Source: Piezodorus guildinii
Taxonomy: Eukaryota > Arthropoda > Insecta > Hemiptera > Pentatomidae
DNA: 64,000 nucleotides
Reading direction: 5' to 3'
NCBI GenBank assembly: GCA_023052935.1
Contig: CM041298.1
Span: forward strand, 5,661,344-5,725,343
This document shows, one piece after another, positions 1,307 through 55,760 of this stretch (its first letter is position 1; each line of letters opens with the position of its first letter). Below the pieces are notes generated by a model. The model saw only the letters and a list, made by a program, of their open reading frames with translations. It was not told the origin of the DNA and did not search any database. A program made the translations under genes and the position numbers.

Positions 1307-1574
1307 TAGTGGCTAGCATAACAGCCTTCTATGCCAGATGTCACCGGTTCTAACCCGCAGGTGGTCCTAGGATTTTTTAATGGGAGTAAAAAATCCTTAG
1401 TTATGCCGTCCTTCGTAGGGGAAGTAAAAAGGTTGTAATAAGCTTGTCCGACGTCAGGTACTCGTTAATGATCCCTATCCTAATAAAACCTGAATAGGCT
1501 AAATTTATGACCCCCACTGTAGCATCGTCCGATTAGCCACAGCAGCATAAAGGGACGTTAAATAAATAAACAAA
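1307..1574 (+). mobile_element. SINE-A copy
   Basis: This is a tRNA-derived SINE. The 5' head has an A-box-like GTGGCTAGCATAAC (first bases lost) and a degenerate B box. The shared body follows (CCTAGGATTTTTTAATGGGAG, then ATCCCTATCCTAATAAAACC, then GCATCGTCCGATTAGCCA). The copy ends in GACGTTAAATAAATAAA. It directly abuts the (CATT)n tail of the upstream LINE. Confidence 0.85.
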
Positions 1575-1644
1575 GAATACTTTAAGTGTCGTATTATTGA
1601 GGTTTAGTGGCTCACTTCGAATTTTTCATTAAAATTCTATATTA

Positions 1645-2313
1645 AAAAATCTGGTGCTTTCGACACACTTACCTCTGTTTTTAGAATCAATTAAAGAATT
1701 TTAAAATACAGTTAGAGATAAAAATGAGTGAAACCATTAAAGAATTAATTAAATAAAATTTCTATAGTAACATGTATTTTATTAAAAAATATATTACATT
1801 ATTATTTAAAATAATCACTAAGTTTTATCGTCTTTTCATCACTCTCTATTAACTTTTAAAAGATTGTGTATGAGATAATATGTTTTCTAAAATCTCAAGC
1901 TTTCTACCGGTATATCATACATGTATATTACTGCTCTTATGTTCAAAAACAAAAAATTGCATTAAAAATATTTCTTTTTCTGTTTATCCTTTAGTTGTTA
2001 GTCAAATTCGTTCTACTTGCATATTTAGCTGTTATTTATCAATACTAACAAGATGATATGGTTATTTATATAGAATATAGAAAATTAAAGGTACTTTAGA
2101 AGAAGGAAATTTAAAATATCGGTATTTAAGCCCTGTCAGACCATTTTAATCAGAATGAAAAACATGATATTAAAGCCCGTTTAATTTTACATCGTTCTAG
2201 CGAATTTAATCAAAATTGTCCGAACCGTTTTCGAGAAAATCGAAAAAAGGTGCAAAATGCATGGTATAAAGTGGCTGTTCTGGTAAGTTCATTTTGATGA
2301 AAAAGGTTTTGTA
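1645..2313 (+). mobile_element. HRA copy (5' two-thirds)
   Basis: It begins AAATCTGGTGC and matches the HRA body through TTGATGAAAAAGGTTTTGT, where an RTE-like fragment cuts it off. The last quarter, with the (CA)n tract and 3' hairpin, is missing. Confidence 0.8.
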
Positions 2314-3414: not shown

Positions 3415-3459
3415 CACACACTGTCACTTACCTATATATGGAATATATAGTAAGGGAAA
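3415..3459 (-). mobile_element. HRA 3' terminus, split by Penelope-like insertion
   Basis: Read on the minus strand, this is the 3' hairpin and end of an HRA element (plus-strand GTCACTTACCTATATATGG). It resumes at 4273. The shared ATAGTAAGGGAAA at 3447-3459 and 4273-4285 is the 13-bp TSD of the insertion. Confidence 0.8.
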
Positions 3460-3523
3460 CTCTGGAAGGAATTAGTCCAAGTGGCGGTCATTAAATGAAA
3501 CAACTAAATAGTTTCAACTAAAT

Positions 3524-4040: not shown

Positions 4041-4050
4041 TCTATTTATT

Positions 4051-4090
4051 GTTTGCCAACGTTTCGACCCCCTTTGTGGGTCATCATCAG
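4051..4090 (-). ncRNA. hammerhead-ribozyme-like motif 1
   Basis: On the minus strand, CTGATGA (4084-4090) is followed by one extra base and a GACCC/GGGTC stem, then GAAA (4062-4065) and CGTTGGC. This is the hammerhead order CUGANGA, stem II, GAAA, NUH. Stem III would be just the self-complementary ACGT, as in minimal dimer-forming hammerheads. The one base between CUGANGA and stem II departs from the textbook core. Cleavage activity is not shown by sequence alone. Confidence 0.5.
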
Positions 4091-4135
4091 AATGGAAACT
4101 GAACTGGAAGCAGTTTCTATCTCCCACCATGCGCC

Positions 4136-4172
4136 CTGGTGATGACCCACAAAGGGAGTCGAAACGTTGGAT
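4136..4172 (+). ncRNA. hammerhead-ribozyme-like motif 2, core mutated
   Basis: CTGGTGA (4136-4142) replaces CTGATGA. A GACCC...GAGTC stem, GAAA (4161-4164) and CGTTGG follow. The A-to-G change in the invariant core predicts loss of activity. It is the inverted partner of the motif at 4051-4090. Confidence 0.45.
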
Positions 4173-4272
4173 AACATTAAATAGTTGAAACTATTTAGTT
4201 GTTTCATTTAATGACCGCCACCCGGACTAATTCCTTCCAGTAATTCTCAACGGTCAACAAATTACATCCACA

Positions 4273-4950
4273 ATAGTAAGGGAAAGTATTGCGATCCTGA
4301 AAATTTTATAAGAATAGTTTTCAACGAAAATACACGTTTTAGGATCCCTGATTCCAAACGACCAATTCCCGCAAAAAGGTCTGTGTTTGTGTGTGTGTGT
4401 TAGCTCCGGGGCGAAAATTGAAAGTACTGTAAAACAGAAATTTCTTATTTAAGATTACTATACGCCCGAGATGTTATAGAATCATTTTATTTAAAATCAG
4501 CCAACTGGAAGATGTACTTTACACTATGCATTTTGCACCTTTTTACAATTAAATATATAAATTGAATTTATTCGATACCAAACTAAAGGAGAAAACAGAA
4601 AAAATATTTTTTTAATGAAATTTTTCGTTTTTGAACATAAGAGCAGTAATATACATGTATGATATACCGTTGGAAAGCTAAAGATTTTAGAAAAAAATAT
4701 TATCTCATACACAAGCCTTTAAAAGTGAATAGAGAGTGACGAAATGAACATAAAACTAACTGATTATTTTAGATAATAATATAATAGGTATTCTAATAAA
4801 ACACGTTTCTATATAAATTCAATTTAATTAATTCCTTAATAGTTTCACGTATTTTTATCTAAAACTGTTTTTGAAAACTCTTTCATTGATTTTAAAAATG
4901 TTAATGGTAAGTGACAGTCATGTGTTGCCCGCACCAGATTTATCTTTATT
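4273..4950 (-). mobile_element. HRA copy, internal deletion
   Basis: This continues the element whose 3' end is at 3415-3459. It carries the GT-rich microsatellite (4383-4400) and ends at the 5' terminus, reading GTTGCCCGCACCAGATT on the plus strand near 4925. About 200 bp is missing around 4545. Confidence 0.8.
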
Positions 4951-15402: not shown

Positions 15403-16175
15403 TTACTTTCACTTACTATATATAGTAAGGGGAAGTATTGCGATCGTGAAAATTTTCGAATTCCAGTTTTCAACGGAAATACACGTTTTAGGGTCCCCTG
15501 AGTCCAAATAACCAAGTCCCGCAAAAAGGTCTGTGTGTGTGAGTGTGTGTGTGTGTGTGGTAACTCCTGGGCGGAAACGGTAAGTCCTATGAAACTGAAA
15601 TTTCATATTTAAGACAACTATACGCCCGAGACGTGACAAAACTTTTTTCATCAAAATGAGCTTACCAGAAGAGGCACTTTATATCATGCATTTTTCACCT
15701 TTTTTCGATTTTCTCAAAAACGGTTCCGACGATTTTGATTAAACTCGCTATATCGATGTAAAATATAATTGACTTTGATATCATGTAGGTTTCATTCTTA
15801 TTAAAACGGTCTGACAGGACTTAAATGTCGATATTTAAAATGTCTTCCTCTAAAGTACCCTTAATTTTGTTTATTCTATAAAAATAACTATATTAGCTTG
15901 TTACTATTGATAAAAAACATGTAGATTTATAAGTTAAATGAATTCGATACCCAACTAAAGGAGAAAACAGAAAACATATTTTATTAACACAATTTTTCGT
16001 TTTTGAACATAAGAACAGTAATATACATGTATGATATACCGTTTGAAAGGTAAACATTTTAGAAAAAATATTATCTTATACTGAAGCTTTTAAAAGTTAA
16101 TAGAGAGTGATGAATAGAAGATAAAACTAACTGGTTATTTTAGATAATAATATAATAGATTTTTTAGAAAAAATG
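15403..16175 (-). mobile_element. HRA copy, near complete, lacking 5' end
   Basis: The 3' palindrome TTACTATATATAGTAA is at 15414-15429 and the GT tract at 15535-15558. The body runs to AATAATATAATAGATTTTTT. The 5' ~150 bp is absent, and a Penelope-like remnant lies beyond. Confidence 0.8.
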
Positions 16176-16277
16176 TAGGAGAAGTAAGTTCAGGTGCAGT
16201 CAAAAGAACACACAATTGACATATGAACTTAATAAACTGGTGCTGACGTTTCGGCCTAAATTATAGGCCTTCTTCAG
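16176..16277 (-). ncRNA. Penelope-like end with hammerhead-like motif 3
   Basis: The minus strand has CTGAAGA (16271-16277, matching CUGANGA), one extra A, a perfect GGCCTA/TAGGCC stem, GAAA (16249-16252) and CGTCAGCACC. About 65 bp after it, GACTGCACCTGAACTTACTT resembles the tail of the motif at 23598-23725. This motif and that at 23683-23711 have the best cores in the window, with a GTC cleavage triplet. Confidence 0.55.
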
Positions 16278-17261
16278 GGCGTTTGAAGGAGAGCGTCACA
16301 ACAACGTAGCAATAATGGATTATTATCATTATTATCACACTACACTGAGTATGTTAGCGCGCGTTGCATTAAACGCGCGTTGTCTAGCAACACAAAAGAC
16401 CAAATAATTTGAAAACCAAACAATTAAGAGTTCGAGACTTTAGGGGGCTTTTATTTTAGCATTTATCCCCCGCCCTCACCTCCTGCCCCGAGAACCCCGC
16501 ATAGCCTTAACAATGAGGTAGGGGAGAACAAAAAAAAAAAAAAGATCCTACACTGATTCATCATTTCTGATTTCTGATCGGCCTTCTGCATTCCCCATTT
16601 TCTTTTACGCGACCTAAGATCGTCCTCAATTTTTTTTTTCTTTTTGGCTATAATATAAATTGTATATATTTATTTTAAACTTTATCTTTTTAGTTTTTTA
16701 ACCTTATTGGCCCAGTTAGTAGTTTTATTTATGTTCATTTTTAGGAGACCTTTTTCCAGTTTTTTTTACAGTTAATTTTTTCTCTATCTATATGCATCTC
16801 TCTTGCTGTAGCCAGTTTCTCGCTGAGTAACCCGCTACCCTCCAGCCTCCTAGCAGGTCGCTTCCAGTAATACCAAGGACTTACAGTGTTACATTTACAT
16901 GCAATGCATGGATGCTCAGAGCTGAATAGCATGAGAGCTAGGAATGCCCTCCCATCGACAGACACAGACCCACCTGGGAGTTGTTTGATTGATCTGACAG
17001 CTAATGGTCACATCTACATTTCCCAGTTTGGATCATACACTATGTCCTGGATATTATTGTGCGATGCACGTGTGTGAAGGTAATATTTCGTGTAATTTAT
17101 GGACATCTAACATGCAACCGAACATTTCGAAGACTATAATTGTTGGTTTTGTAATAAATTTCTCTGGTATTCAATATACGTTTCTGTGGATATTTCTACT
17201 AACTGTTACGAAATATTCTCTTTGTTTCACTCTTCACAAGACATTGGGACAACCCTTTCCT
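16278..17261. other. unassigned sequence
   Basis: A 16.3-16.5 kb GC-richer patch, poly-A at 16532 and several short ORFs without motifs. CTGAGTAACCCGCTACCCTC near 16823 recurs at 53325-53345 and, in part, inverted near 52530, suggesting a further low-copy repeat. Confidence 0.3.
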
Positions 17262-18800: not shown

Positions 18801-18844
18801 AAGTAATAGCAAAAATATTATAGGTGGAATAGTCAGGAATCAGT

Positions 18845-18925
18845 CATTTTTTTGAAAAGTTTTTAATTTTGGCAACGTTTCGGCTCAAGCTTGTGAACCA
18901 TCATCAGGACATTACTGAGCCATGT
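18845..18925 (-). ncRNA. hammerhead-like motif 4 (Penelope-like remnant)
   Basis: The minus strand has CTGATGA (18901-18907), one extra T, a GGTTCA...TGAGCC stem with one G-T wobble, GAAA (18878-18881) and CGTTGCC. The surrounding arm sequence differs from the other copies, so it is a separate subfamily. Confidence 0.5.
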
Positions 18926-19079
18926 CGAAGCATAAACTGCATAAACATTTTAAATCATTTTACAACAAAATGATTGGATGAAAGCTATGTTTTTCAAAAC
19001 GCGCGCCAGGTCAGCGCTCCATATCGCAGTGTATTTAGCCACTATGAATCATTTCTTCTAAGATTCCCTTGTTCAGATA

Positions 19080-21250: not shown

Positions 21251-21691
21251 CGCTCCATCATCTCCCGTTCTAAGGTGATACAAAGCCAATCGAAACACGG
21301 GACTCTGGTACTACTCGAGAAGCGACGCGAATGTAAATAAAAAGGGTTTGGGTGTGTGTTTAGATTGAGTGGAGGAGGCGATTGTTTCATGTTCGATTCG
21401 AGGAGAGTCGAGGAAAGCAGTGAGAAGAAACTATTTATCTAATCTGTTTAATTTATTTACATTCTCTTTGTAATGGCACATTGTTTGGATTATCAAACAA
21501 GACTAAAGAAACTGCTCATAGATACCGATTACTAGAAAAATTTACACAAAAAAAAACATTAAAAATACTATGTATCAGGTAAAATGACTCCTGAAGTATA
21601 AAATGTAATGGGGTTTGGCTCGCTATTGGAATTGTAGGCCAAAACTAGTGGCTGGTTGCGAAGGACAAACCCACGTTAAAAACGTGTAAAA
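21251..21691. other. unassigned sequence
   Basis: No known family is recognised. Moderate GC near 21290-21420. Confidence 0.3.
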
Positions 21692-22203: not shown

Positions 22204-22222
22204 GATCACGTCGGGGTCACCA
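22204..22222 (-). other. primer-binding site, tRNA-Trp type
   Basis: The plus strand reads GATCACGTCGGGGTCACCA, matching the conserved 3' end of metazoan tRNA-Trp plus CCA at 18 of 19 positions as I recall it. The minus-strand element thus has a TGGTGACCCCGACG site. Copies recur one unit on, near 22732-22750 and 23259-23277. Confidence 0.8.
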
Positions 22223-22223
22223 A

Positions 22224-22540
22224 TTTAACGAGTTTCGTTAAAACTAATTCTTACTTAGTAATTAAAACTTTTATAACCAAAAAAGCACATTTATTATGTT
22301 CATACAAGCTCTATCAACAACATTAAAAAAAACAATATGTTTTATATACAGGAAGGTTACTTTCTGGTTAGCCACCTGGTACACATTTTATAAAATATAT
22401 ACAAATAAATTTAATGAACATATCAAAAATATTCACAACCAAAAATATGAATCAGACAAATTATGTGACCAAGTGGCTAACGCGATTTATGCCGGCGAGC
22501 GGTACGATTAACTGAAGGTTAAGGTACCCACTCCGCTACA
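22224..22540 (-). repeat. TRIM LTR 2
   Basis: 317 bp. B-type variants AAGCTCTATC, TTTTATATACAG and TTACTTTCTGG, shared with LTR 4. Confidence 0.85.
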
Positions 22541-22751
22541 TCACCTCCCTATCTGCTTTAAAAAATTCCGGGAGCTGTGCTTTGACACAAGCCGTCGATA
22601 CCATTTCTACGGGTTGTGAAATTACCGGCGGAGTTACGATCTCTTGGTCGTCTTGCGTGAGAAGATTAAACACATCCTTTGATGCCATTTTTGTAAAAAT
22701 GCTAATTAAAACTATGTACTCACAGCTCTCGGATCACGTCGGGGTCACCAA

Positions 22752-23067
22752 TTTAACGAGTTTCGTTAAAACTAATTCTTACTTAGTAATTAAAACTTTT
22801 ATAACCAAAAAAGCACATTTATTATGTTCATACAAGCTTTATCAACAACATTAAAAAAAACATATGTTTTATTTACAGGAAGGTTACTTCCTGGTTAGCC
22901 ACCTGGTACACATTTTATAAAATATATACAAATAAATTTAATGAACATATAAAAAATATTCACAACCAAAAATATGAATTAGACAAATTATGTGACCAAG
23001 TGGCTAACGCGATTTATGCCGGCGAGCGGTACGATTAACTGAAGGTTAGGGTACCCACTCCGCTACA
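22752..23067 (-). repeat. TRIM LTR 3
   Basis: 316 bp, A-type like LTR 1. It shares GGTTAGGGTACC with LTR 4, where LTRs 1 and 2 have GGTTAAGGTACC. Confidence 0.85.
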
Positions 23068-23278
23068 TCACCTCCCTATCTGCTTTAAAAAATTCCGGGA
23101 GCTGTGCTTTGACACAAGCCGTCGATACCATTTCTACGGGTTGTGAAATTACCGGCGGAGTTACGATCTCTTGGTCGTCTAGCGTGAGAAGATTAAACAC
23201 ATCCTTTGATGCCATTTTTGTAAAAATGCTAATTAAAACTATGTACTCACAGCTCTCGGATCACGTCGGGGTCACCAA

Positions 23279-23593
23279 TTTAACGAGTTTCGTTAAAACT
23301 AATTCTTACTTAGTAATTAAAACTTTTATAACCAAAAAAGCACATTTATTATGTTCATACAAGCTCTATCAACAACATTAAAAAAAACATATGTTTTATA
23401 TACAGGAAGGTTACTTTCTGGTTAGCCACCTGGTACACATTTTATAAAATATATACAAATAAATTTAATGAAATATCAAAAATATTCACAACCAAAAATA
23501 TGAATTAGACAAATTATGTGACCAAGTGGCTAACGCGATTTATGCCTGCGAGTGGTACGATTAACTGAAGGTTAGGGTACCCACTCCGTTACA
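23279..23593 (-). repeat. TRIM LTR 4 (outer 5' LTR)
   Basis: 315 bp, B-type like LTR 2, with private changes (TGCCTGCGAGTGG, TGTAACGG start). Confidence 0.85.
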
Positions 23594-23597
23594 GAAT

Positions 23598-23725
23598 GTT
23601 AGATGAGGAAGATGGTTGGGGGTGCGGTCATGAATTAGAAATACATATTTAAAATAAGTGCTATTTTAATTATGTGCCGACGTTTCGGCCTACAATGTGG
23701 GCCTTCATCAGGGCTAAAAGAAACA
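23598..23725 (-). ncRNA. Penelope-like end with hammerhead-like motif 5
   Basis: The minus strand has CTGATGA (23705-23711), one extra A, a GGCCCAC/GTAGGCC stem with one mismatch, GAAA (23683-23686) and CGTCGGC. Stem I can form from GCC and GGC either side. The following ~100 bp (GGCACATAATTAAAATAGCA, later CATCTTCCTCATCTAACATT) matches 32335-32450. The TRIM inserted just beyond its end. Confidence 0.6.
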
Positions 23726-24163
23726 AGAAGAAACAATCAATGTAATTATAGACTTAATAATGCTTTAGGTATATAATAATAATATGACAGTAATAAAATA
23801 TGGGAGCATAAATAAAATTAAATGTAAAATGATAATAAGATGACAGTTATAAAGTATGGAAATAAACAAAATTTAGATGATAGTTATAAAGTATGGAAGT
23901 AAACATAATTGAGATGATAATATTGTAATGAGAGTATATAAAGAGAGACTAAGCAAATGAAAAAAATGACAAAGGAAAAATATGTGAACAATTAAAATTT
24001 TAAATATTAACAATTTTGAAGTGATATATGACGGTAATATATTAAAAACATAGTTAAGGGTATAGGTAATATATAAAAAGAACATAGTCATTAAAAAAGA
24101 GAAACAATCTGAATAAAAAATAATTTTAAATTTTAAAATAATGTTATATTAAACTAAGAATTA
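23726..24163. repeat. AT-rich imperfect short repeats
   Basis: GATGACAGTTATAAAGTATG and close variants recur at about 23840, 23876 and 23783. Otherwise there is no feature. The stretch may be part of the Penelope-like remnant next to it. Confidence 0.4.
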
Positions 24164-24165
24164 TA

Positions 24166-25076
24166 TTGGGTTGATGCAAAATTAATGCAGGTTTTTAGTA
24201 GGTATTGTAAATACGCCATATCTTTACTTTAACCATATATATTTAATCAAAATAATTTCCATCTGAATCAATGCACTTTTGCCAACGTTCAACAAGCTTT
24301 CTTATTCCACCAGAAAAAAAATCCGAATCCCTGGACTCAATGAAATCACGAAAAGAATTTTCAATGTCGTCCTGGTTTTGAAAATTTTTCTCCCTCAAAA
24401 AGTTGTCCAGATGCCTGAAAAAGTGGAAGTCTGTAGGAGAGAAGGTCAGGTGAATAAGGCGGATGTTGGAGAACTTCGTAGCCCAACTCGTGCAGTCGTC
24501 GAAGCGTTGGTTGTGCAACGTGTGGTCTGGCGTTACTACTGGCACCCACTTGGCCAACTTTTTTACCTTACCAATTGCTTCCAAGTGGCGTACAACTGTG
24601 GATTGGTTCACACCGAGTTCCGCCGCCATTTCTCGTGTGGTTTTGGTTGGGTCTTCTTCCACTTTTGACCTCAGCTAGTCGTTGTCCAGAGCAAGATGAC
24701 GGCCCCGACCTTCCTTGTCTTCGAGGTCGAAATCTCCTCTGCGAAACTTCTGGAACCAACGCTGCACCGTGCACTCATTAATAGCCCCCTGACCCCACAC
24801 TTCATTAATATTACGAGCCGTTTGCGCAGCGCTGCGCCCTAATTTAAATTCGTAAAAATAAATTTGACGAAAATCGCACTTTGACATTTTCGATTCAAGA
24901 CCTTTGAACACACTGAACAAAACGATTTTACTAAACAAATTCATGGTGAAAGAGAGGGTATTAGATAAGGTTTATTTTGGTATAATAATGATCAATGTTA
25001 GGATTAGCTTTGTTTACACAATTGGAATTAAGATATTGCAATAGAGGAAACCTGCATTAATTTTGCATCAACCCAA
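24166..25076 (-). mobile_element. mariner element (MarA), internally deleted, perfect TIRs
   Basis: 29-bp identical terminal inverted repeats (24166-24194 and 25048-25076, starting TTGGGTTGATGCAAAATTAA) are flanked by the TA target duplication (24164-24165, 25077-25078). At 911 bp it falls short of the ~1.3 kb usual for mariner. The encoded transposase lacks its middle third. TIR and protein resemble the cecropia-type group that includes Hsmar1. With intact TIRs it could in principle be mobilised in trans. Confidence 0.93.
24243..24944 (-). pseudogene. mariner transposase, deleted and frameshifted
   Basis: The N-terminal helix-turn-helix region is readable (FYEFKLGRSAAQTARNI, TVQRWFQKFRRGDFDLED). 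A TAG at 24675-24677 sits where the frame then continues LRSKVEEDPTKTTREMAAEL and STVVRHLEAIGKVKKL. After WVP the sequence jumps to ARPHVAQPTLRRLHELGYEV and PPYSPDL in another frame. It then returns to SPTDFHFFRHLDNFLREKNF and the C-terminal WQKCIDSDGNYFD. The deleted part would hold the first two catalytic aspartate regions, so the protein is inactive. Confidence 0.9.
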
Positions 25077-26202: not shown

Positions 26203-26541
26203 TTAATACCTATGGAAGAGGCTTTTGTCTATAATAATGCCAATATAGCTATTATTATTATTATTATTATTATTATCTTTCGGGTATTTTTTTATTATTT
26301 CTTCATCATCAACAGTTGAAGGACGACCTGAACACTTTGCGTCTTCCAAGTCTATATATCCGGTTCTGAACCGAGCAAACAACTTACAGACGATGCTTTC
26401 TGCTAAGACATCATCGGCATACACATTGAAAATTGCGTTAACCGTCTTTGCAGCGGATTTTCCTTTTCGGAAATAAGAAATCATTAAATGACGATAATGA
26501 ATGTTTTCCCTTCCATTTTGAGTATGCAAAATACCACTCAA
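26203..26541 (-). pseudogene. mariner-like transposase N-terminal fragment
   Basis: The 112-aa frame has YFRKGKSAAKTVNAIFNVY, ESIVCKLFARFRTGYIDLED and SGRPSTVDD, the N-terminal DNA-binding part of a mariner transposase. It then degenerates into a (TTA)n tract read as poly-Asn (plus 26251-26277). No TIRs or catalytic part are seen. It is a third, separate mariner lineage. Confidence 0.7.
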
Positions 26542-26655
26542 AGATAAGGAATCTCAATTGAAACTGATGTATAAAAGCACCTTAAATAATCCTTTTTTTA
26601 GAATAAGTAAACATAATTGACCATGTAAACATGATTTATAAACACAGATAGGATT

Positions 26656-32334: not shown

Positions 32335-32450
32335 TAACTGAATCAGCCCGAAACGTTGGCACACAATTAAAATAAGCACTACTTTTTAATTTGCTTCTTT
32401 CTGATGACTGCAACCTCAAACATCTTCTTCATCTAATATTCTCAACGATC
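32335..32450 (+). mobile_element. Penelope-like end, hammerhead decayed (motif 6)
   Basis: GAAA (32350-32353) with CGTTGGCACACAATTAAAAT and, later, CATCTTCTTCATCTAATATT parallels the minus strand of 23598-23725. Stem II is missing (CTGAATCAGCCCGAAA), so no ribozyme can fold. Confidence 0.55.
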
Positions 32451-32454
32451 AACT

Positions 32455-32908
32455 GAACACAATAATTGTTACTGAGTGATGGGCGTATTTATGGATAAAA
32501 TTAAATTATGTTTTTTTTTTTGTTAAATTACACTAATAAATTATTTATCTATCTTAAAAAAATAAATGATTTATTGAATTAAATCACTTTAAATCGACCC
32601 CCATATCGGAGAAATGCCGCGGACGGAAAACAAAAGGAATTTTTTTATACATTTATTTTAAACGTTATTTATACGTTAAAACTCTATAGATTTTTTCCTC
32701 TATCTACGAAAAAAAAAAAGAATTACAAGTGTACATAACTATAAGCATGATTTCAGTTTTTTACTTTTCTAATTTTTTAATTGGTCGCGGTGTCCTGATC
32801 CTAAAATTGGATACAATTTTTTCTCTATCTTAAAAAATATCTGAGTGATAGGCGTATTTATGGCTAAAATTTATTTTTTTACATATATTTTCTATTTGCG
32901 GTTGATTA
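32455..32908 (-). repeat. R4/R3 repeat pieces
   Basis: GGGCGTATTTATGG at 32482 and 32858 matches R4 at 6530-6690. CGGAGAAATGCCGC near 32605 matches R3 at 8175. The mariner at 32911 interrupts this segment, which resumes at 33762. Confidence 0.4.
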
Positions 32909-32910
32909 TA

Positions 32911-33759
32911 TTGGGTTGTGTCACATGAAATGTCCGTTTTCAAGGTAAAGGATTTTTATTAAAAATACGATATGATAACAAGATTATTTTATTCGAAGTA
33001 TTTACCTTTTTTTTACACACGTTTTTCCCGACGTGACACCAACTTTTTTATCCCTGAACTAAAAAACACTGAGCTTTGAAGTGACATAAAATCTGAAAAC
33101 GCACTTTTCATTTGATCATCATTTTCAAAATGTTTTCCTTTGACGAAGTTCTAAATTCCTGAACAGGTGGTAATCTGCTGGAGACAAGTCGGGAGAATAT
33201 GGTGGGTGCGGAAGAAGTTCATAGCCCAGTTCTTTCAAGTTTTGAAACTGATGAGCTGCCGCTCAGTGAGATCATGAGGTACCCATGTATCGAGATTTTT
33301 TACTTTCCCAATACACTTTAAATGTCTGGAAACGGTAGATGCCACTTGCATTTAGTTGTGCTGAGAGTCCTTTAACGATTTGGTAGAGTTTTCCTTCTAC
33401 TGTATGTTTGAGGACATCGTTGTCTATTACGGACGGAGGTCTTCCTTGAATGGTCCGTTCATTAACACTCCCTTCCCCAAACGCCTTGCAAATATTTCTA
33501 GCGGCCTCAGCTGCTGAATGGCCGAGTTTAAACTCGTACAAAAATATTACTCGAAAATCGCGTGTTTCCATGTTCATATTTGGATGTATACTAATAAGTG
33601 GGTAATTGATTAAGAAGCTAATGTTTATGATACAAAGGTAGAGGATTAGTAACTGTTTACTTTAAATATGTAAACATTCGGAAGAAAACAGAGACCGGCA
33701 AAATCCTTAAATGTATTTCAGAAACTATAAAAACGGACATTTCATGTGAAACAATGCAA
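32911..33759 (-). mobile_element. mariner element (MarB copy 1), internally deleted
   Basis: TIRs share ACATGAAATGTCCGTTTT, with a few mismatches in the outer bases (TTGGGTTGTGTCAC, and TTGCATTGTTTCAC on the other end). TA flanks both sides (32909-32910, 33760-33761). The 849-bp length indicates a large internal deletion. Relatives are at 35437-36244 and 60051-60407. Confidence 0.85.
33040..33577 (-). pseudogene. MarB transposase remnant
   Basis: The N-terminus is MNMETRDFRVIFLYEFKLGH, then SAAEAARNICKAFGEGSVNE and, after a short deletion, GRPPSVIDNDVLKHTVEGKL. The frame then breaks. Lower down, C-terminal blocks are recognisable by comparison with the copy at 35437-36244. The catalytic middle is absent. 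Confidence 0.8.
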
Positions 33760-37249: not shown

Positions 37250-38218
37250 TTTTTTTTTTTAATTTATTTATAGTAATTTACAACTGTACTAAAGAATACA
37301 ATAAGTAAATATGTAGAAAGAATATAAAAAGTCATGAAAATGTCTTGAGAAAGAACCTAACTATTTTAATACAGTAGGTCCCGAGGCCACCTTCTTTTCA
37401 GTCGCCTTGGAGGGTTATCAGGGATATCTGAGGAAGATAAATTACGGACAAGTGGATTTGTATGGGCAGGGAGTTTAGAATGGAAATAGGAGTATCTATC
37501 ACGGGCTATGTCTGCAACAAATGGGATGTTTAGGTCATTATGGAGGAGTTGATTTGTGACAAAATAAGGAGCATTCAGGATTTTGCGAAGGATTTTGGAT
37601 TGTAAGGACTGGATGCGGGAGGAATTAGATGGTTTCGTAGAGCCTCGATTCCATATGTCCAAATAGGTCTGATAATTGTGATGTAGATGAGACTTTTGTA
37701 GTATACTGGAAGTTTTGAACGTTTGTCTAGTAAGTGTTGTAGTAATCGATATCTTCGAGCAGTTTCTTGTCGTTTCAGTCTTGTGTGAGAATTTCAAGTA
37801 AGGCGCTTGTCAAGATGGAGACCTAGGTATCGGATTTGTTCAACAGAAGTAAGGGTAATGTTATTAAATGATACTGGGGGGCAGGAAGTCATCGGTTCGC
37901 GACGAAGGGTAAAGGTGATTTGGTGGGATTTGTTGGGATTTATTTTAATCCCCCAATTTTGACACCATTCTTCAATGGCTGTGATGTGGGACTGAAGGGT
38001 TTGGGATGCGATAGTTGGATCATTAAGGACGGATAAGACACACGTGTCATCAGCATAAGTATTGAGGACAGTGCGAGGATGGAGTGGAATGTCAGCTGTA
38101 TAAAGGGAGTAGAGGATAGGACCTAAGATACTACCTCGAGGCACTCCAGCAGATAGGGAAAATGTGGATGAGTAGGAAAAGTTGTGGTTTACCTTAAAGG
38201 TTCTGCCAGTAAGGTAGG
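37250..38218 (-). mobile_element. Jockey-like LINE, 5' truncated, 12-bp TSD
   Basis: The poly(A) end is plus-strand T13 at 37248-37260. Minus-strand coding gives FKVNHNFSYSS, PRGSILGPILYSLYTADIP, the catalytic YADD in LNTYADDTCVLS, EEWCQNWGIKINPNKSHQIT and IRYLGLHLDKRLT. After a frameshift at about 37796 come WNRGSTKPSNSSRIQSLQSK and RRLKRRWPRDLLY. ATATAAAAACTT at 37238-37249 and 38219-38230 is the TSD. Confidence 0.9.
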
Positions 38219-40145: not shown

Positions 40146-42829
40146 TTACAATATGTCTCGGGGCCACTGCCGTTTCAACCTTCTAGGAGGGTTGTATGGA
40201 TGAGTGGAGCTGGATAGGGATTGTGCTAGAGGATTAGGATGATGAATGAGGTTCTGGTGGAATTTGGAAAATTTAGATGGAATCAGGTCTGAAATAAATG
40301 GAACATTAAGGTCGTGGTGCAAGGTATAGTTGGATACATAATAAGGAGCATTTACTATTATTCGCAGGACTTTGGATTGAAAGGATTGAATGCGTTTGAT
40401 GTTAGAACGTTTAGCTGTCCCCCACAGTTCAAGTCCGTAGGTCCAGATTGGCTTCAGTATTGTCTTGTAAAGTAATAATTTGTTGTCAACTGTAAGCTTA
40501 GATTTTCTGTTTAGTAGTCTGTATAACTGTCCGAATCGTCTGTTGAGTTCTTTTCGTTTAAGTCTTGTATGTGGGTTCCACGTCAATCTTTTGTCTAGTA
40601 GTAAGCCAAGATACCGGACTGTGTCTGAGGAAGGAAGCGGTATGGAATTGAAATGAACCATTGGACAGGATTTGCGTCGAAGGGTGAAGGTGACGTGGGT
40701 GCATTTGCTTTCATTAACTTTAATACGCCAAGCATTACACCAGTCCTCGATAAGACAAAGGTGTCTTTGCAGGATTAAGGATGCTGTTTCAGGATCGGAA
40801 TTGGATGATAGGATGGCGGTGTCATCTGCAAATGTTGCCAGAAAGGTGTCAGGATGATTAGGAATATCAGCAGTGTAAAGGATGTAGAGGACGGGTCCCA
40901 AGACGCTGCCTTGAGGAACACCGGCCTCAATGGGATAAAAGTTAGAAAATTCTACACCACAGCGAACTCGGAAGGAGCGGTTGAGAGATAGGATCGTAGA
41001 ATGAGGTATAGAGACTGGGGTAAATGCGTTTTAAGCTTGAAGAATAATCCGGTGTGCCATACCCGGTCAAAAGCTTGCGCTATGTCCAGAAACGCACCAG
41101 AACAATACTCTTTGCATTCAAGGGCTGAGGAAATATGGTCTACAACTCGGAGTCCTTGTTGAACAGTGGAATGATGAGCACGGAAACCAAACTGATGGGA
41201 AGGAAGATTTTGTGATTCTAATATAGGCAGGATTCGTTTTAGAAGGAGTTTTTCAAAGACCTTTGAGAGGATGGGGAGTAGACTAATAGGTCTGTAAGAT
41301 GAAGTGTTGCTGGAAGGTTTACCTGGTTTTAGGAAGAAAATGATTGTGGAATGTTTCCACAAGAGAGGAAAATAGGTGGTGCGTAGGATGCAGTTGTAGA
41401 TATAGGTTAGGAATATAATAGCTTTCTGCGGAAGTTGACGGAGGATCTGGGGGGTAAGGAGATCATGTCCAGGAGACTTACGGAGGGTCAGTTTCTGGAG
41501 AAGATATTTAACCTCAGAGGGATTAATAGCTTTTGGAGGTAGGGAAAGAGGTATTGGTGACAAAAGGAAGTCTAGTACTGCTGCGGTATGATTGCTTTGG
41601 GATTCCGGGTGAGGAGTGAATACTTTGGAGAGGTGTGTGGCGAATTCCTCGGCTTTATCTTCATCAGACGCAGCCCAGGAGTCATCACCACGCCGGAGAG
41701 GATGGGAAACTTGATGGGATTTTAAAATCTTCTTCGTGACATTCCACAGGGAATTGTCACTAGCTGACAGAGAGGAGAGGTAGGAATTAAAGGACTGGGA
41801 ACGGAAGGTCGCCAACTCCTGCTTCAATTGTCTACAATAGAAGTTATAGGAGCGGCGATCTGTTGGGTGTCGGGTGCGCTTCCATAATGATCTGGCACGG
41901 CGTTTTGCATGGATTAGGTCTGTAAGGTGTTGAGGCAAATGGTTTTGGTGAGGAGTTATATTGGAGTGCTTAGGAGAGGAGGCAGTCCAGACAGCTTGCT
42001 GAATGGCGGTGGTGAAGGAGTAGACGGAATCGTCAAGGTCTTCTGGGGTTTTGAAGGTCGCTCTGAGGTTAATATTATCGGTCAGGATTTGGCGAAATAG
42101 GTTCCAGTTGACAGGGCCTCGGATAAATGACGGTGGAATAGGTTTTGGAATTGGAGTGAGAGATACTTTTAGGATCAGTGGACTATGGTCTGAGGATAGT
42201 TCATCAAGTCGAGTTAAAGATAAGTTGAAGGAGCCTAATCCGCTGTGAATGAAGAAGTCAAGGATGTCAGGATTACGGTTGGGATCGGTTGGCCAGTAGG
42301 TAGGGGAATCAGGAGGTAGGAGATTGAAATGACGGGAGTTGAGTGCAGACAGCAAATTTCGTCCACGAGAATTCGTGGTTCTCGAACCCCACTGTTGATG
42401 CTTGGCATTTAAGTCTGCACCCAGAATGAAATGATTTCCTAAGGAATTTAGAAAGGATACAAATTCGGTGTTGGAAATGGAGTGTTTGGGAGGGCAATAT
42501 GCTGATGTAAGGGTTACCGGAAAGGAAAAAGTTTTGATTACTATGGCTGTGGTTTGTAGGAAATCATAGGTAGGAAGTGGGAGTAAGTGATGAGAGAGGG
42601 ACTGGTGCACAATGACAGCAGTACCGGCATGGGCTTTGCCGTCTGGGTGGTCCGTACGGTATGTCACGTATTGAGGTATTTTGAAGAACTGTTTAGTGGT
42701 TAGTCTAGTTTCAGTAATAAGTGCTACGTCAACGTTTTTGTCTTGCAATAAAGCAGTAAGTTCGTCAGTATGATTTCTAACACCATTCGCATTCCATATG
42801 AGAATGGATAAGGAGTTAGGTGAAGTCAT
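40146..42829 (-). pseudogene. Jockey ORF2: endonuclease and reverse transcriptase, one frameshift
   Basis: The product would be a LINE polyprotein that nicks target DNA and reverse-transcribes the element RNA. Residues 1 to about 220 form an APE-type endonuclease: WNANG near 12, ITET near 39, GADLNAKHQQW near 138 and SDHSPL at 213-218. RT motifs follow: FLKPGKPSS and SYRPISLL near 505-525, FGFRAHHS, and LDIAQAFDRVW near 583 with the first catalytic Asp. At about 40980 one base is missing, so the first frame ends at 40952. The remaining frame carries GVPQGSVLGP, FADDTAILS with the catalytic DD, RYLGLLLDKRLTWNPHTRL and the terminal RRLKRQWPRDIL. ORF2 starts at the ATG touching the ORF1 stop. 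Confidence 0.95.
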
Positions 42830-44146
42830 TTAAGGATTTTTTAAGGAAGGGATTAAGTTTGATACAAGATTAGTAAGTAGTGATATTAGCGGCATAACGA
42901 GGGATTTGATTTCAGTGATGAAGGATGTCATCAAACTTGTAAGGTCTGAGACATTTGATGGAGGAGGGATATGAGAAATCTGATGCGGATGAGGTTTTTG
43001 AGGGTTGGGTAAATTTTGAGGAATAGCTGGTTGTGAAACAGTTTGAGGATTTTGAAGTGTGCGTTGTTCCGGCAGGGCCTCGGCCTCTTTGTTCTGGTTC
43101 CCACCTCCAAGTAGATGGGCAAATGTAACATTGGAATCAATTGTTTTTGAAGGTTGTCTTCTGCTTCTGATCGGTTCAGCTGTTTCATCCAGATTCTGAG
43201 GTTTTTGGTATCTGCTTTTGATGTTCTTGTAGATTTGACATCCCTTGTAGCTAGCCGGGTGGTCCTTGAGGCACAGAGCACAAACAGCGGGTGTTGATCT
43301 TGGTCTTGTACATTCTTCTGACTTATGTTGTTCACCGCATTTCACACAGCGTGGTATGTGGTGACAATAACTTCTAGTATGACCATATGCCTGACAATTG
43401 TGGCACTGCACTATTTCTTTCTTAGTGTAAGGTTTTTCAACTCTTACACTAGTATAGTATAATCTATTGAGGTCATAAATTTTTTCGACTCCTGCTGATG
43501 GCTCCAAGTCCACAAAGAATAGAGGCAGTGGAATTTTATCTTTTAGGACGTTGGTGACTTGCCGCACTTTATAGCCTATCTCCGTCAGTTCTTCTTGGAT
43601 AGCTGCTGCTGGTGTCGAAGGGTGTAGGTTTCTAATTACAACCCTTAAAGCTCTCTCCTGGCGTAACTGATATGTATGAAAATCAGCTTTGGTCTCCGTC
43701 AGATATTTTACTATTTTTCTGTAGGTTTCGGCGGTAGTCGGGGATATTTTAGTATCACTGGTTCTACTTATACAATAATAACTGTTAGGATCGGTTAATT
43801 TATTTAGATGCGCACACAGTAGTTGAAAGTTTTTAATATTTTTAACAAATATTGGTGGAGGTTGTGGTTCTTTTGGTATAGGAGAAGATTCCATTGTTTC
43901 TTTTTCAATTTGAAGGATCTGAAATGGGTTCGGTGTAAAAAACGGCGATTCTTCAGATAATCCTTGTGATGATGTGCTAGGCTGTGGTTCAGATCCTAAA
44001 GAGGTAGCTGAAGCAGTCGCTGGTGGAATCATTTTTTTATTATTATCACGGCGAGGTCTCTGTTTTTTGGGAGACGAGTTTGAACCTGCAGATCTAGATC
44101 TTTTACTTGTAACTTTCGAGGACATCACTTGATGAAAATATCGCAT
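42830..44146 (-). CDS. Jockey ORF1, gag-like RNA-binding protein
   Basis: Open for 438 codons. It binds element RNA and helps form the ribonucleoprotein in Jockey-type LINEs. The N-terminus is basic and Ser/Pro-rich. A central folded region (about 95-240, including RALRVVIRNLHPSTP) resembles the PRE_C2HC-type region of Jockey gag. Three zinc knuckles follow at about 248-303: CHNCQAYGHTRSYC, CVKCGEQHKSEEC and CALCLKDHPASYKGC. The C-terminus is Pro/Gln-rich with a hydrophobic end. The first ATG is at 44146. The ATG at 44125 (MSSKV) is an equally likely start. The stop TAA (42830-42832) is followed immediately, in the same frame, by the ORF2 ATG. Confidence 0.93.
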   Translation of the reverse strand: MRYFHQVMSSKVTSKRSRSAGSNSSPKKQRPRRDNNKKMIPPATASATSLGSEPQPSTSSQGLSEESPFFTPNPFQILQIEKETMESSPIPKEPQPPPIFVKNIKNFQLLCAHLNKLTDPNSYYCISRTSDTKISPTTAETYRKIVKYLTETKADFHTYQLRQERALRVVIRNLHPSTPAAAIQEELTEIGYKVRQVTNVLKDKIPLPLFFVDLEPSAGVEKIYDLNRLYYTSVRVEKPYTKKEIVQCHNCQAYGHTRSYCHHIPRCVKCGEQHKSEECTRPRSTPAVCALCLKDHPASYKGCQIYKNIKSRYQKPQNLDETAEPIRSRRQPSKTIDSNVTFAHLLGGGNQNKEAEALPEQRTLQNPQTVSQPAIPQNLPNPQKPHPHQISHIPPPSNVSDLTSLMTSFITEIKSLVMPLISLLTNLVSNLIPSLKNP

Positions 44147-44499
44147 TGATTAAAAAAAATAAATAGGAATAAATATATAATGGAATGAGAATAAGAAGGA
44201 AAAAAAATAAATAAAAGAAAGATAAGGAAAATAAAAGCAAGCCCGAGCTTGCCGAGCTAGCGGCAATCAGCTGATCAGTGACCCTCCTTTCACTTTTTCG
44301 TGATTGTACAAAGTAAATTATAACTTTGCTTACCGAAATTTCTCCAATATTCACTGCTGTAGTATTCCTGAGGTCTAGTGATGTTTTCCAGACTGAACTC
44401 AAGCGAATTCCTACTGAAAAAAGCAAAAATCTGAGAGACGAAGTAACGTATGACTGTTATCATCGAGCGCATCAGCTGATCATATCAGTAAGTGAAAGT

Positions 44500-48180: not shown

Positions 48181-48275
48181 CCCATCCAATTTGGATAGAA
48201 ATTAAAAAAAAAAAAATCTTGATTTGCAGTAGTTTTTTTTCGGACAGGAGACTACGTTTGTAAAAGTAGATTATA

Positions 48276-48420
48276 GGGGTACTCACTACGTTTGCTATAG
48301 GATGCTATTTGTGTTATTTTGCTAAACCCGTCGAGTTTCTACAGTTATTTCCTGTATAAAATTTATGGGTTTAGCACAATAGCACAAATAGCATGCTATA
48401 GCAAACATAGTGAGTACCCC
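48276..48420. mobile_element. fold-back MITE with 54-bp arms and TTATA TSD
   Basis: Arms 48276-48329 and 48367-48420 are inverted copies differing at about 4 of 54 positions (GGGGTACTCACTACGTTTGC and so on), around a 37-bp loop. TTATA flanks both sides (48271-48275, 48421-48425). The near-perfect hairpin could also be transcribed as a precursor of small RNAs. Confidence 0.75.
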
Positions 48421-48803
48421 TTATATTGAGAATGCACGTTTTATTATTATTGTTTCATTTTATTCACCTTGTGGAGATATGTCGTCTTGAATTATGTCAT
48501 CATAATCTGAATGTGACTGTAGACTGTATGAGTTGGTACACATAGCACATTTTATTTTTATTTTTATGGACCTGCCATTTGTATCTTAAAAATTAAAAAA
48601 ATTAGAAACATGCTTTTTATTTATTTTATAGATTGATCTATCAGTGAAAGAATTAAATTATTCGCTCTTTTGTTTTCCTCGTCGTGGACTTTTTTTAACT
48701 TGATTTTCTCTTGATCTTGAATTCCGGCTTTATAATTTAAATTATTCTCTGTTTTAAATAATTGATCCATCTATGAAAAATTAAAATAAATGGTTTGTTT
48801 ATT

Positions 48804-55345: not shown

Positions 55346-55643
55346 GTCTATAGTTACCCATATTCCATACTACCAAATTGTACCTAGTTTCCATTCGCCT
55401 ACATCACGGTACGAATCTCCACTCTACTCCATTTTTCAACGTTTCTTATTTCATGTATTTTTCTAATATATTTGTACATTATCTGCTCTGTATAGTCCTC
55501 TCATTATTATACCTTTGTCATTGTAATTTAATTAATTGATTTCTTTACGATTCTAGTTCCTTTTCATGTTATAATATTGACATTATATGGCGCAATAGTT
55601 TTTAAAATAGTTTATTTAATCTTATTTTAAATGTATCTTTTCA

Positions 55644-55760
55644 GTCCTGATGGTGACCCACAATGGGGGTCGAAACGTTGGTAAAAAATAAACTGTTGAA
55701 ACTACTCCATTGTTTCATTCACCGACCGCCACTCGGACTAATTCCTTTTAGTAGTTTCCT
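55644..55760 (+). ncRNA. Penelope-like end with hammerhead-like motif 7, core mutated
   Basis: CTGATGG (55647-55653, A9 changed to G), a GACCC/GGGTC stem, GAAA (55672-55675), CGTTGG, then the arm with GACCGCCACTCGGACTAATT as at 3460-3523 and 4185-4250. It confirms that the hammerhead and arm form one unit. Confidence 0.55.

Follow-up and report, generated by a model that had tools for sequence, protein, structure and literature searches.

We find that the 64,000 nucleotides analysed here (the window) contain several hammerhead-like motifs which very probably belong, as minimal type I hammerhead-ribozyme-like elements, to the terminal region (pLTR) of Penelope-like retrotransposons (PLEs), a judgement that covers both the identity of the motifs and the anatomy of the elements that carry them. 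Their identity with a PLE terminal motif is near certain, while conditional cleavage of the motif RNA is a proposal to which we give roughly even weight. Hammerhead-like motifs in PLEs are already known, and this genome holds tens of thousands of copies. At the DNA level, comparison of copies shows that upstream sequence and CC precede the core, which has one extra base, and that an AT-rich spacer and then an AC-rich 3' end follow it.

Four intact motifs lie in the window, all on the minus strand and all in the order CTGANGA, one base, stem II, GAAA and ACGTY (Table 1). The preliminary description of this DNA had listed four such ordered motifs and read their layout as a hammerhead core with stem II and a self-complementary ACGT; both the positions and the layout proved correct, as did the mutated versions that it reported, which are two plus-strand copies with one core change each (4136 and 55647) and a plus-strand copy that retains the 3' half only (32350). 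In the six copies that were aligned, the invariant core CUGANGA and GAAA is intact in four and carries one change in two; the seventh is truncated. A scan for the core followed by a stem II of at least 5 bp returned four places in the window and none in 300 order-3 Markov windows of equal size. A near-match at 21631 was judged to be due to chance. In the 1.2-Gb host genome the general motif pattern has 35,023 matches (17,555 and 17,468 on the two strands), a lower bound as are all genome counts of these repeats, against 26 (15 and 11) for a reversed control pattern.

Table 1. Motif copies and Penelope-like pieces in the window
Feature	Position	Strand	Remarks
Tail-only fragment, GACCC family	3458..3520	-	without core
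Head-to-head PLE insertion with both cores	4045..4274	.	89% to L233 over 241 columns
Hammerhead-like core	4058..4090	-	extra T, stem II GACCC/GGGTC; left half of head-to-head pair
Hammerhead-like core, A6 to G (CTGGTGA)	4136..4168	+	right half of head-to-head pair
PLE terminal piece around 16277 core	16175..16315	-	88% to L220 over 143 columns
Hammerhead-like core CTGAAGA	16245..16277	-	extra A, stem II GGCCTA/TAGGCC
PLE terminal piece, intron-free: exon ...GGCTCAGTAATG joined straight to core	18801..18962	-	limits are the union of L235 and L237 matches
Hammerhead-like core	18874..18907	-	extra T, stem II GGTTCA/TGAGCC
AC-rich 3' end block; putative reverse-transcription start region by analogy with PAc	23594..23630	-	adjoins 527-bp array
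5'-truncated 3' end of PLE	23595..24166	-	87% identity to L240 over 613 columns
Hammerhead-like core, C3 to H17	23679..23711	-	CTGATGA, extra A, stem II GGCC/GGCC, GAAA, ACGTC
Predicted cleavage site of the 23679..23711 core	after 23679	-	by analogy with hammerhead
5'-truncated copy, starting inside core 13 nt before predicted cut	32345..32467	+	spacer and end block retained
PLE terminal piece around 55647 core	55357..55756	+	83% to L198 over 427 columns
Hammerhead-like core, A9 to G (CTGATGG)	55647..55679	+	

An unusual property of the core, one that the preliminary description had singled out, is the presence of exactly one base between CTGANGA and stem II in all four intact window motifs, an A at 16277 and 23711 and a T at 4090 and 18907. 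This base is real and occurs throughout the genome: when stem II is held to GRCC/GGYC, 16,717 genome matches have one extra base, 20 have none and 89 have two, and the reversed controls for the three patterns return zero in every case. Among these matches, stem II pairs directly beside A9, as expected of a hammerhead, in only 20, and the best stem II register leaves one extra base in 57 of 61 distinct copies taken from genome loci and the window. Known hammerhead alignments have insertions of no more than one or two nucleotides beside CUGAnGA, according to the available portion of PMC10085705, and the core insertions that the available part of Perreault 2011 names, some of which reduce activity, do not include one after A9.

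The same extra base is seen in motifs outside PLEs. A strict three-stem pattern that includes it occurs in nine viral contigs (two of which, L123 and L126, are identical at the motif), and each of the nine holds a motif that outdoes shuffled flanks in closing stems I and III (p <= 0.02). Over 18 loci, closing at p <= 0.02 was reached by 16 of the 20 motifs that have one extra base and by 11 of the 12 that have none. Prokaryote genomes gave 31 matches in 30 loci (extra T in 24, A in six and G in one), 16 of which close their stems at that level, all of them with T. These closed viral and prokaryote motifs suggest that an extra U after CUGAUGA occurs in seemingly complete hammerheads; the extra A of the 16277 and 23711 copies lacks such a precedent, none of the six prokaryote motifs with A closing its stems at that level. 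Rfam is also blind, at its gathering score, to extra-base viral motifs that close all three stems, reporting no hammerhead in the eight strict-pattern loci submitted to it nor in L146. At E <= 5, only L125 among seven loci gave an alignment, to the type III model at 27.0 bits (cut-off 48.5; E 0.15), with an inserted u exactly at the position of the extra base. The generic pattern produces many chance matches in viral contigs. Because a 301-base stretch of L128 had no match among annotated phage records, we refer to these loci as viral contigs and not as phages. Some of the loci carry more than one motif: L125 has three hammerhead-like motifs with extra U, and L146 has five, four of which close their stems, together with a Pistol ribozyme found by Rfam. 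The prokaryote loci L167-L196 with extra-base motifs are from organisms such as Paenibacillus, Oscillibacter and Pseudoflavonifractor.

In the alignment of six window copies the core is accompanied by a stem II that reaches 6 bp at most and by a stem I of 3 bp, in which GCC pairs with GGC, imperfectly in some copies. Three of the six stem II pairs have two-sided changes, and the values for these six copies were reached in 500 shuffles 14 times for the covariation score, 24 times for the share of paired cells, 78 times for the number of two-sided pairs and 478 times for the number of pair types; taken alone, this covariation is modest evidence. Across 60 distinct copies from genome loci and the window, pairing is seen at the first four stem II positions in 57, 57, 58 and 59, with G-C/A-U and C-G/U-A exchanges, and the three stem I pairs form in 57, 55 and 55, whereas a fourth forms in 14. 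The compensating differences from which the preliminary description had argued for a constrained fold are thus real as two-sided changes, but because the copies are related repeats these reflect few between-family events and not many independent ones.

The Rfam hammerhead models have no match in the window, whether at the gathering score or with the threshold relaxed to E 10, and a 121-base slice and the inverted pair gave none either, so that no window copy exceeds a curated cut-off; the lack of a score above threshold is the result that had been named beforehand as speaking against the hammerhead assignment. Canonical hammerheads that Rfam detects in L086, L095 and L109 served as positive controls. 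Three helices within one RNA were likewise not seen, with stems I and III unclosed in all four intact window copies; stem I has just 3 bp, and a monomer cannot close stem III. A 51-nt monomer is predicted to adopt a plain extended hairpin in which GAUG of the core is paired to CGUC, and for two such strands the prediction is one long duplex and not a hammerhead dimer, a result that fits a need for protein and speaks against simple dimer action. A covariance model (R1) built from the six window copies found no further copy in the window and scores the viral loci with an extra U at 10.8 to 31 bits; since matches among 50 loci of the first generic scan score as high as 19.1 bits, R1 scores are not taken as proof.

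The link to Penelope-like elements comes most directly from the genomic locus L240 (G000:C1:1719001-1728000), which contains a 360-aa open frame on the minus strand with a YVDD motif and a GIY-YIG domain. Two head-to-head cores enclose this frame, which is 1.07 kb upstream of a core and within an insertion that is bounded by a 14-bp target-site duplication and has a one-sided PLE tail. Both Pfam matches are under the curated cut-offs (GIY-YIG, E 0.00094, 19.9 bits versus 22.6; RVT_1, E 0.001, 19.3 bits versus 29.6). The frame has 92 homologous proteins, nine with PF01541 and many with RVT_1 and PF26215, and the nearest named homologue, from Halyomorpha halys, is 57% identical. The window copy at 23683 matches L240, which bears out the association with a Penelope-like terminus that had been proposed from the letters alone; the linked reverse transcriptase (RT) and GIY-YIG frame whose presence was to be looked for was found in one copy, L240, where both domains lie in a single frame linked to the terminal repeat. 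The matching window piece at 23595 runs from intron-type sequence ending TTTCTTTTAG through the core and an AT-rich spacer to the AC-rich end block, and the head-to-head insertion at 4045 has lost its left end and retains a right end of the long type. No GIY-YIG frame is present among 30 window open frames of at least 110 aa scanned out of 32 (the two left out belonging to the repeated array), nor did a crude six-frame motif scan of the window reveal a GIY-YIG signature. Elsewhere, a frame in L243 without a Pfam match has a start that matches the short frame of a 296-bp array (see below), and we take it to be the N-terminal part of such a PLE; the fetched loci never show it together with RT. 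At L197 a zf-RVT-matching frame (1492-2103, minus strand) has its last codons encoded by the motif (ALMMTHNGGRNVGKQ). A splice fusion involving this non-LTR RT frame was considered and dropped, as the upstream bases fit a truncated insertion better, and the arrangement is probably a truncated Penelope-like insertion that is in frame by chance.

The window has several other repetitive features. Between 21696 and 23593 a unit of 527-528 bp is repeated in tandem 3.6 times, at 97-98% identity in BLAST pieces, and the last copy ends where the Penelope-like piece begins; three places in this array (22204-22251, 22732-22779 and 23259-23306) resemble RSV_PBS, a retroviral primer-binding site, in Rfam (E 0.23). 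A long near-perfect inverted repeat at 48273-48424, matched on both strands by MIR7127 of Rfam at 61.8 and 61.7 bits (cut-off 100), is perhaps a small inverted-repeat transposon. Frames of a non-LTR-type retrotransposon with endonuclease (Exo_endo_phos), RT and PRE_C2HC matches occupy 40146-44149, further RT frames are at 37794 and 58329, and transposase fragments at 24243-24674, 26203-26553 and 33272-33661 give one Tc3-type helix-turn-helix match below cut-off and two Mos1-type matches.

The arrangement of neighbouring copies is that of PLE insertions. The head-to-head and tail statistics are drawn from places near the start of contig C1, where the first 100 of the 35,023 places include 30 neighbours closer than 1 kb, 18 of them head-to-head, one tail-to-tail and 11 in tandem; with one array set aside, the 20 remaining close neighbours comprise 17 head-to-head, one tail-to-tail and two tandem cases. 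Inverted and tandem pLTRs with head-to-head joins, as expected of PLEs, are therefore both represented, the latter by a tandem array of 296-bp units. Twenty head-to-head pairs were searched for duplications, scored as a shared word of at least 8 bases with the ends 40-125 nt from the core and one of them at least 60. Such a word is present in 13 pairs and absent from seven; L238 (poly-T) and L239 (an internal palindrome) were dropped and L236 was kept despite being A-rich, giving target-site duplications in 11 of the 20 pairs, nine of them 12-15 bp long and one of these A-rich. The core end lies 45-75 nt from the duplication on the short side and 84-116 nt on the long side in these pairs, and the ends differ by 30-41 nt in all 11, in agreement with the optional 30-40 nt tail at one end of PLEs. 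The joins in the middle of head-to-head pairs vary.

The tandem array is at L227 (3749-7058), where 296-bp units that are 99-100% identical are arranged head-to-head, 6.8 on one strand and 4.3 on the other. Every unit contains a single core, a single tail and a short frame that begins MMKRTREQQQ and has its end encoded by the core; the frame has no Pfam match and is presumably a PLE N-terminus. RNA from the tandem units could supply the dimers on which minimal PLE hammerheads are said to depend, dimer action being reportedly what the title of a 2017 paper by Lunse announces for them.

Downstream of the core, several window copies have in common an AT-rich spacer and an AC-rich block that begins 50-56 nt after GAAAC. 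We compared blocks between family A (4161, 55672 and the arm at 3520) and family B (23686 and 32350), and two of the six comparisons reach p <= 0.006 against shuffles, the other four giving 0.08 to 0.88. A block profile from A alone misses B and one from B alone misses A; the best match of the joint profile outside its training set is the 16252 copy, at the expected place with E 3.8, and the next, a chance match, is at 4.2. The 18881 copy lacks a clear AC-rich block, and the 4065 copy is cut off before it. That the copies share this end block is weakly supported from the window alone and clear once genome copies are compared.

The sequence upstream of CC|CTGATGA is either a pyrimidine-rich stretch ending in AG or other sequence mostly ending in G, and the base before CC is G in 55 of 59 distinct copies, at intron ends and exon ends alike. 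Both halves of L239 continue from the exon GGCTCAGTAATG into GTACGT and an intron of 277 or 273 nt ending ...TTTGTAG|CCCTGATGATGG, and in L224 a 65-nt GT...AG intron separates GGCTCAGTAATG from CCCTGATGATGG; in L223 and the window copy at 18907 the exon is joined straight to the core. The exon occurs 14 times in the fetched DNA and the window (not de-duplicated), 11 times exactly intron-free and three times with an intron. The existence of both forms indicates that in the GGCTC family a 3' splice site lies 2 nt ahead of the core and that spliced and unspliced RNAs have both been copied; retained spliceosomal introns, which are a PLE trait, are thereby recognisable from sequence alone in L239 and L224. 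An intron in a Penelope family, and the retention of introns, are discussed in the available portion of PMC3846280. Splicing is shown, as far as genomic copies can show it, for the GGCTC family only, and is likely in the 296-bp unit, for which L243 (CTTCAG|GTGACT) is the only partner. The fetched DNA contains no intron-containing partner of the GACCC upstream sequence CACCATGCG; the window copy at 23683 is of the AG-ending type, and no intron-free partner of its family was seen in the fetched DNA.

The presence of G before CC in intron-ended and exon-ended copies would mean that stem I survives splicing. It is tempting to see the one-base insertion as defining a distinct functional hammerhead variant that is common to PLEs, viral-contig and prokaryote elements and is tied here to splicing, a suggestion that we regard as doubtful. 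The 5' strand of stem I (G|CC) would then straddle the 3' splice site, and in unspliced RNA the folded ribozyme could mask the splice acceptor.

We infer that the element protein primes reverse transcription at the AC-rich end on both DNA strands, at two sites about 35 nt apart, which would give rise to two outward-facing 3' ends. The motif RNA would cleave after ACGU(C/U) only if two copies dimerise through the self-complementary ACGU or if the element protein assists. Because the cut site is between the reverse-transcription start and the remainder of the element, cleavage would destroy the template. In 22 head-to-head pairs that were inspected, which include the 20 tested for duplications, both copies run past the predicted cut, and the templates were therefore uncut there. 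No clear copy starts at the predicted cut among 54 candidate tail starts, a biased sample in which nine lack GAAACGTY upstream and were judged to be chance or degenerate cases. The plus array of L227 starts 7 nt and the 32350 copy 13 nt before the cut, which is more like a stop at stem II. We conclude that cleavage, if any, is likely to be conditional and to lie outside the making of these copies, in agreement with PAc, the Poseidon element of Anolis carolinensis.

Several other explanations of the motifs were considered. They could be structural hairpins and not ribozymes, that is, a stem-loop at the PLE end that is recognised by the element protein or reverse transcriptase and has no role in cleavage, and we consider this possible, if on balance improbable. 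The predicted preference of the monomer for an extended hairpin and of the dimer for a plain duplex, the absence of an Rfam match and the derivation of the examined copies from uncut RNA are all consistent with it, as is the insensitivity of insertion in vitro by the Anolis PLE to a dead hammerhead in the available part of PMC11167929. However, N7 is A in eight of 61 copies, which breaks the hairpin yet is allowed in a hammerhead, the bases of CTGA-GA and GAAA are exactly those of the hammerhead core, and the Anolis motif, as that text has it, does cleave in the presence of protein. An alternative that we think unlikely is that the motif is a degenerate relic, an ancestral working hammerhead inactivated by the extra base and copied merely as part of the PLE end. 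Near fixation of the extra base would fit this, as would the minimal stems I and III and the lower activity caused by some of the other core insertions in the available part of Perreault 2011, whereas the preservation of the searched core bases in tens of thousands of copies and several stem II families, and the three-stem layouts elsewhere with an extra U in the same place, argue against it.

The predominance of head-to-head inverted pairs among close copies, many with duplications and nine of these of 12-15 bp, is also what would be expected of a foldback or terminal-inverted-repeat DNA transposon with the motif in its ends by chance. This is highly improbable, given the RT and GIY-YIG frame inside one such insertion, the unequal ends of all 11 pairs, the variable middle joins and the existence of intron-free copies. 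Chance matches in AT-rich DNA can be set aside for practical purposes: a generic pattern does frequently match viral contigs by chance, but neither the simulated windows nor the reversed genome control comes anywhere near the observed numbers. A minimal type I hammerhead-like element at the PLE terminus is thus the explanation we favour.

These motifs resemble the minimal hammerheads previously described in PLEs, for which a missing helix III, proposed action as dimers and a pseudo-LTR location are reported in the available portions of PMC6155905, PMC7761336 and PMC7229834; core, missing helix III, proposed dimer action and location are alike, and the copies in this genome differ in that nearly all have one extra base after CUGANGA. 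As described in the accessible text of PMC11167929, the PAc hammerhead cleaves only with protein, and PAc cleaves and extends both DNA strands; its reverse transcription starts at an AC-rich stem-loop 111-118 nt into a frame that begins at stem II, with two start sites and a 30-40 nt tail between them. The elements described here would share with PAc, so far as that text goes, the pLTR hammerhead, the AC-rich start downstream, two start sites with a tail, extension of both strands and uncut RNA as the main template. They differ in that a frame starts about 105 nt after the motif in the GACCC family, and not at stem II as in PAc.

The Penelope families of Adineta vaga are alike, in the available portion of PMC3846280, in their inverted pLTRs, head-to-head copies (there the most frequent form), 31-bp tail on one inverted pLTR and short target-site duplications, and differ in their very low copy number; the word "ribozyme" is absent from that paper's main text. 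Self-priming on an antisense template is preferred in that portion for Adineta vaga Penelope, and the insertion data here fit self-priming and priming on both strands equally. Metazoan non-LTR retrozymes, in the accessible part of PMC7229834, are comparable to the L227 array in having short tandem units with type I hammerheads. A retrozyme would be expected to have a canonical type I hammerhead and to be expressed as circular RNA, whereas the 296-bp unit has a PLE-type minimal core and a short frame. The viral-contig and prokaryote layouts share with the window copies the extra base, there a U after CUGAUGA in three-stem forms, and differ in that stems I and III close there and not in window-copy monomers. 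We found no description of the extra base or of the splice-site position for PLE hammerheads in the literature searched, whose scope did not extend to Cervera 2014 and Lunse 2017, and we make no claim that the near-fixed extra base or the position right behind a splice site is unpublished.

With its several families, its copies in spliced as well as unspliced form, its tandem array and its clean insertion ends, this genome is a setting in which specific questions about PLE hammerheads are testable: is the extra base tolerated or required, does cleavage feed into insertion (the examined copies say no), and are both DNA strands primed at two fixed sites, as the constant pairing of one long and one short end suggests? 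If the link to splicing is true, there would be competition for the same RNA among ribozyme, splicing and reverse transcription.
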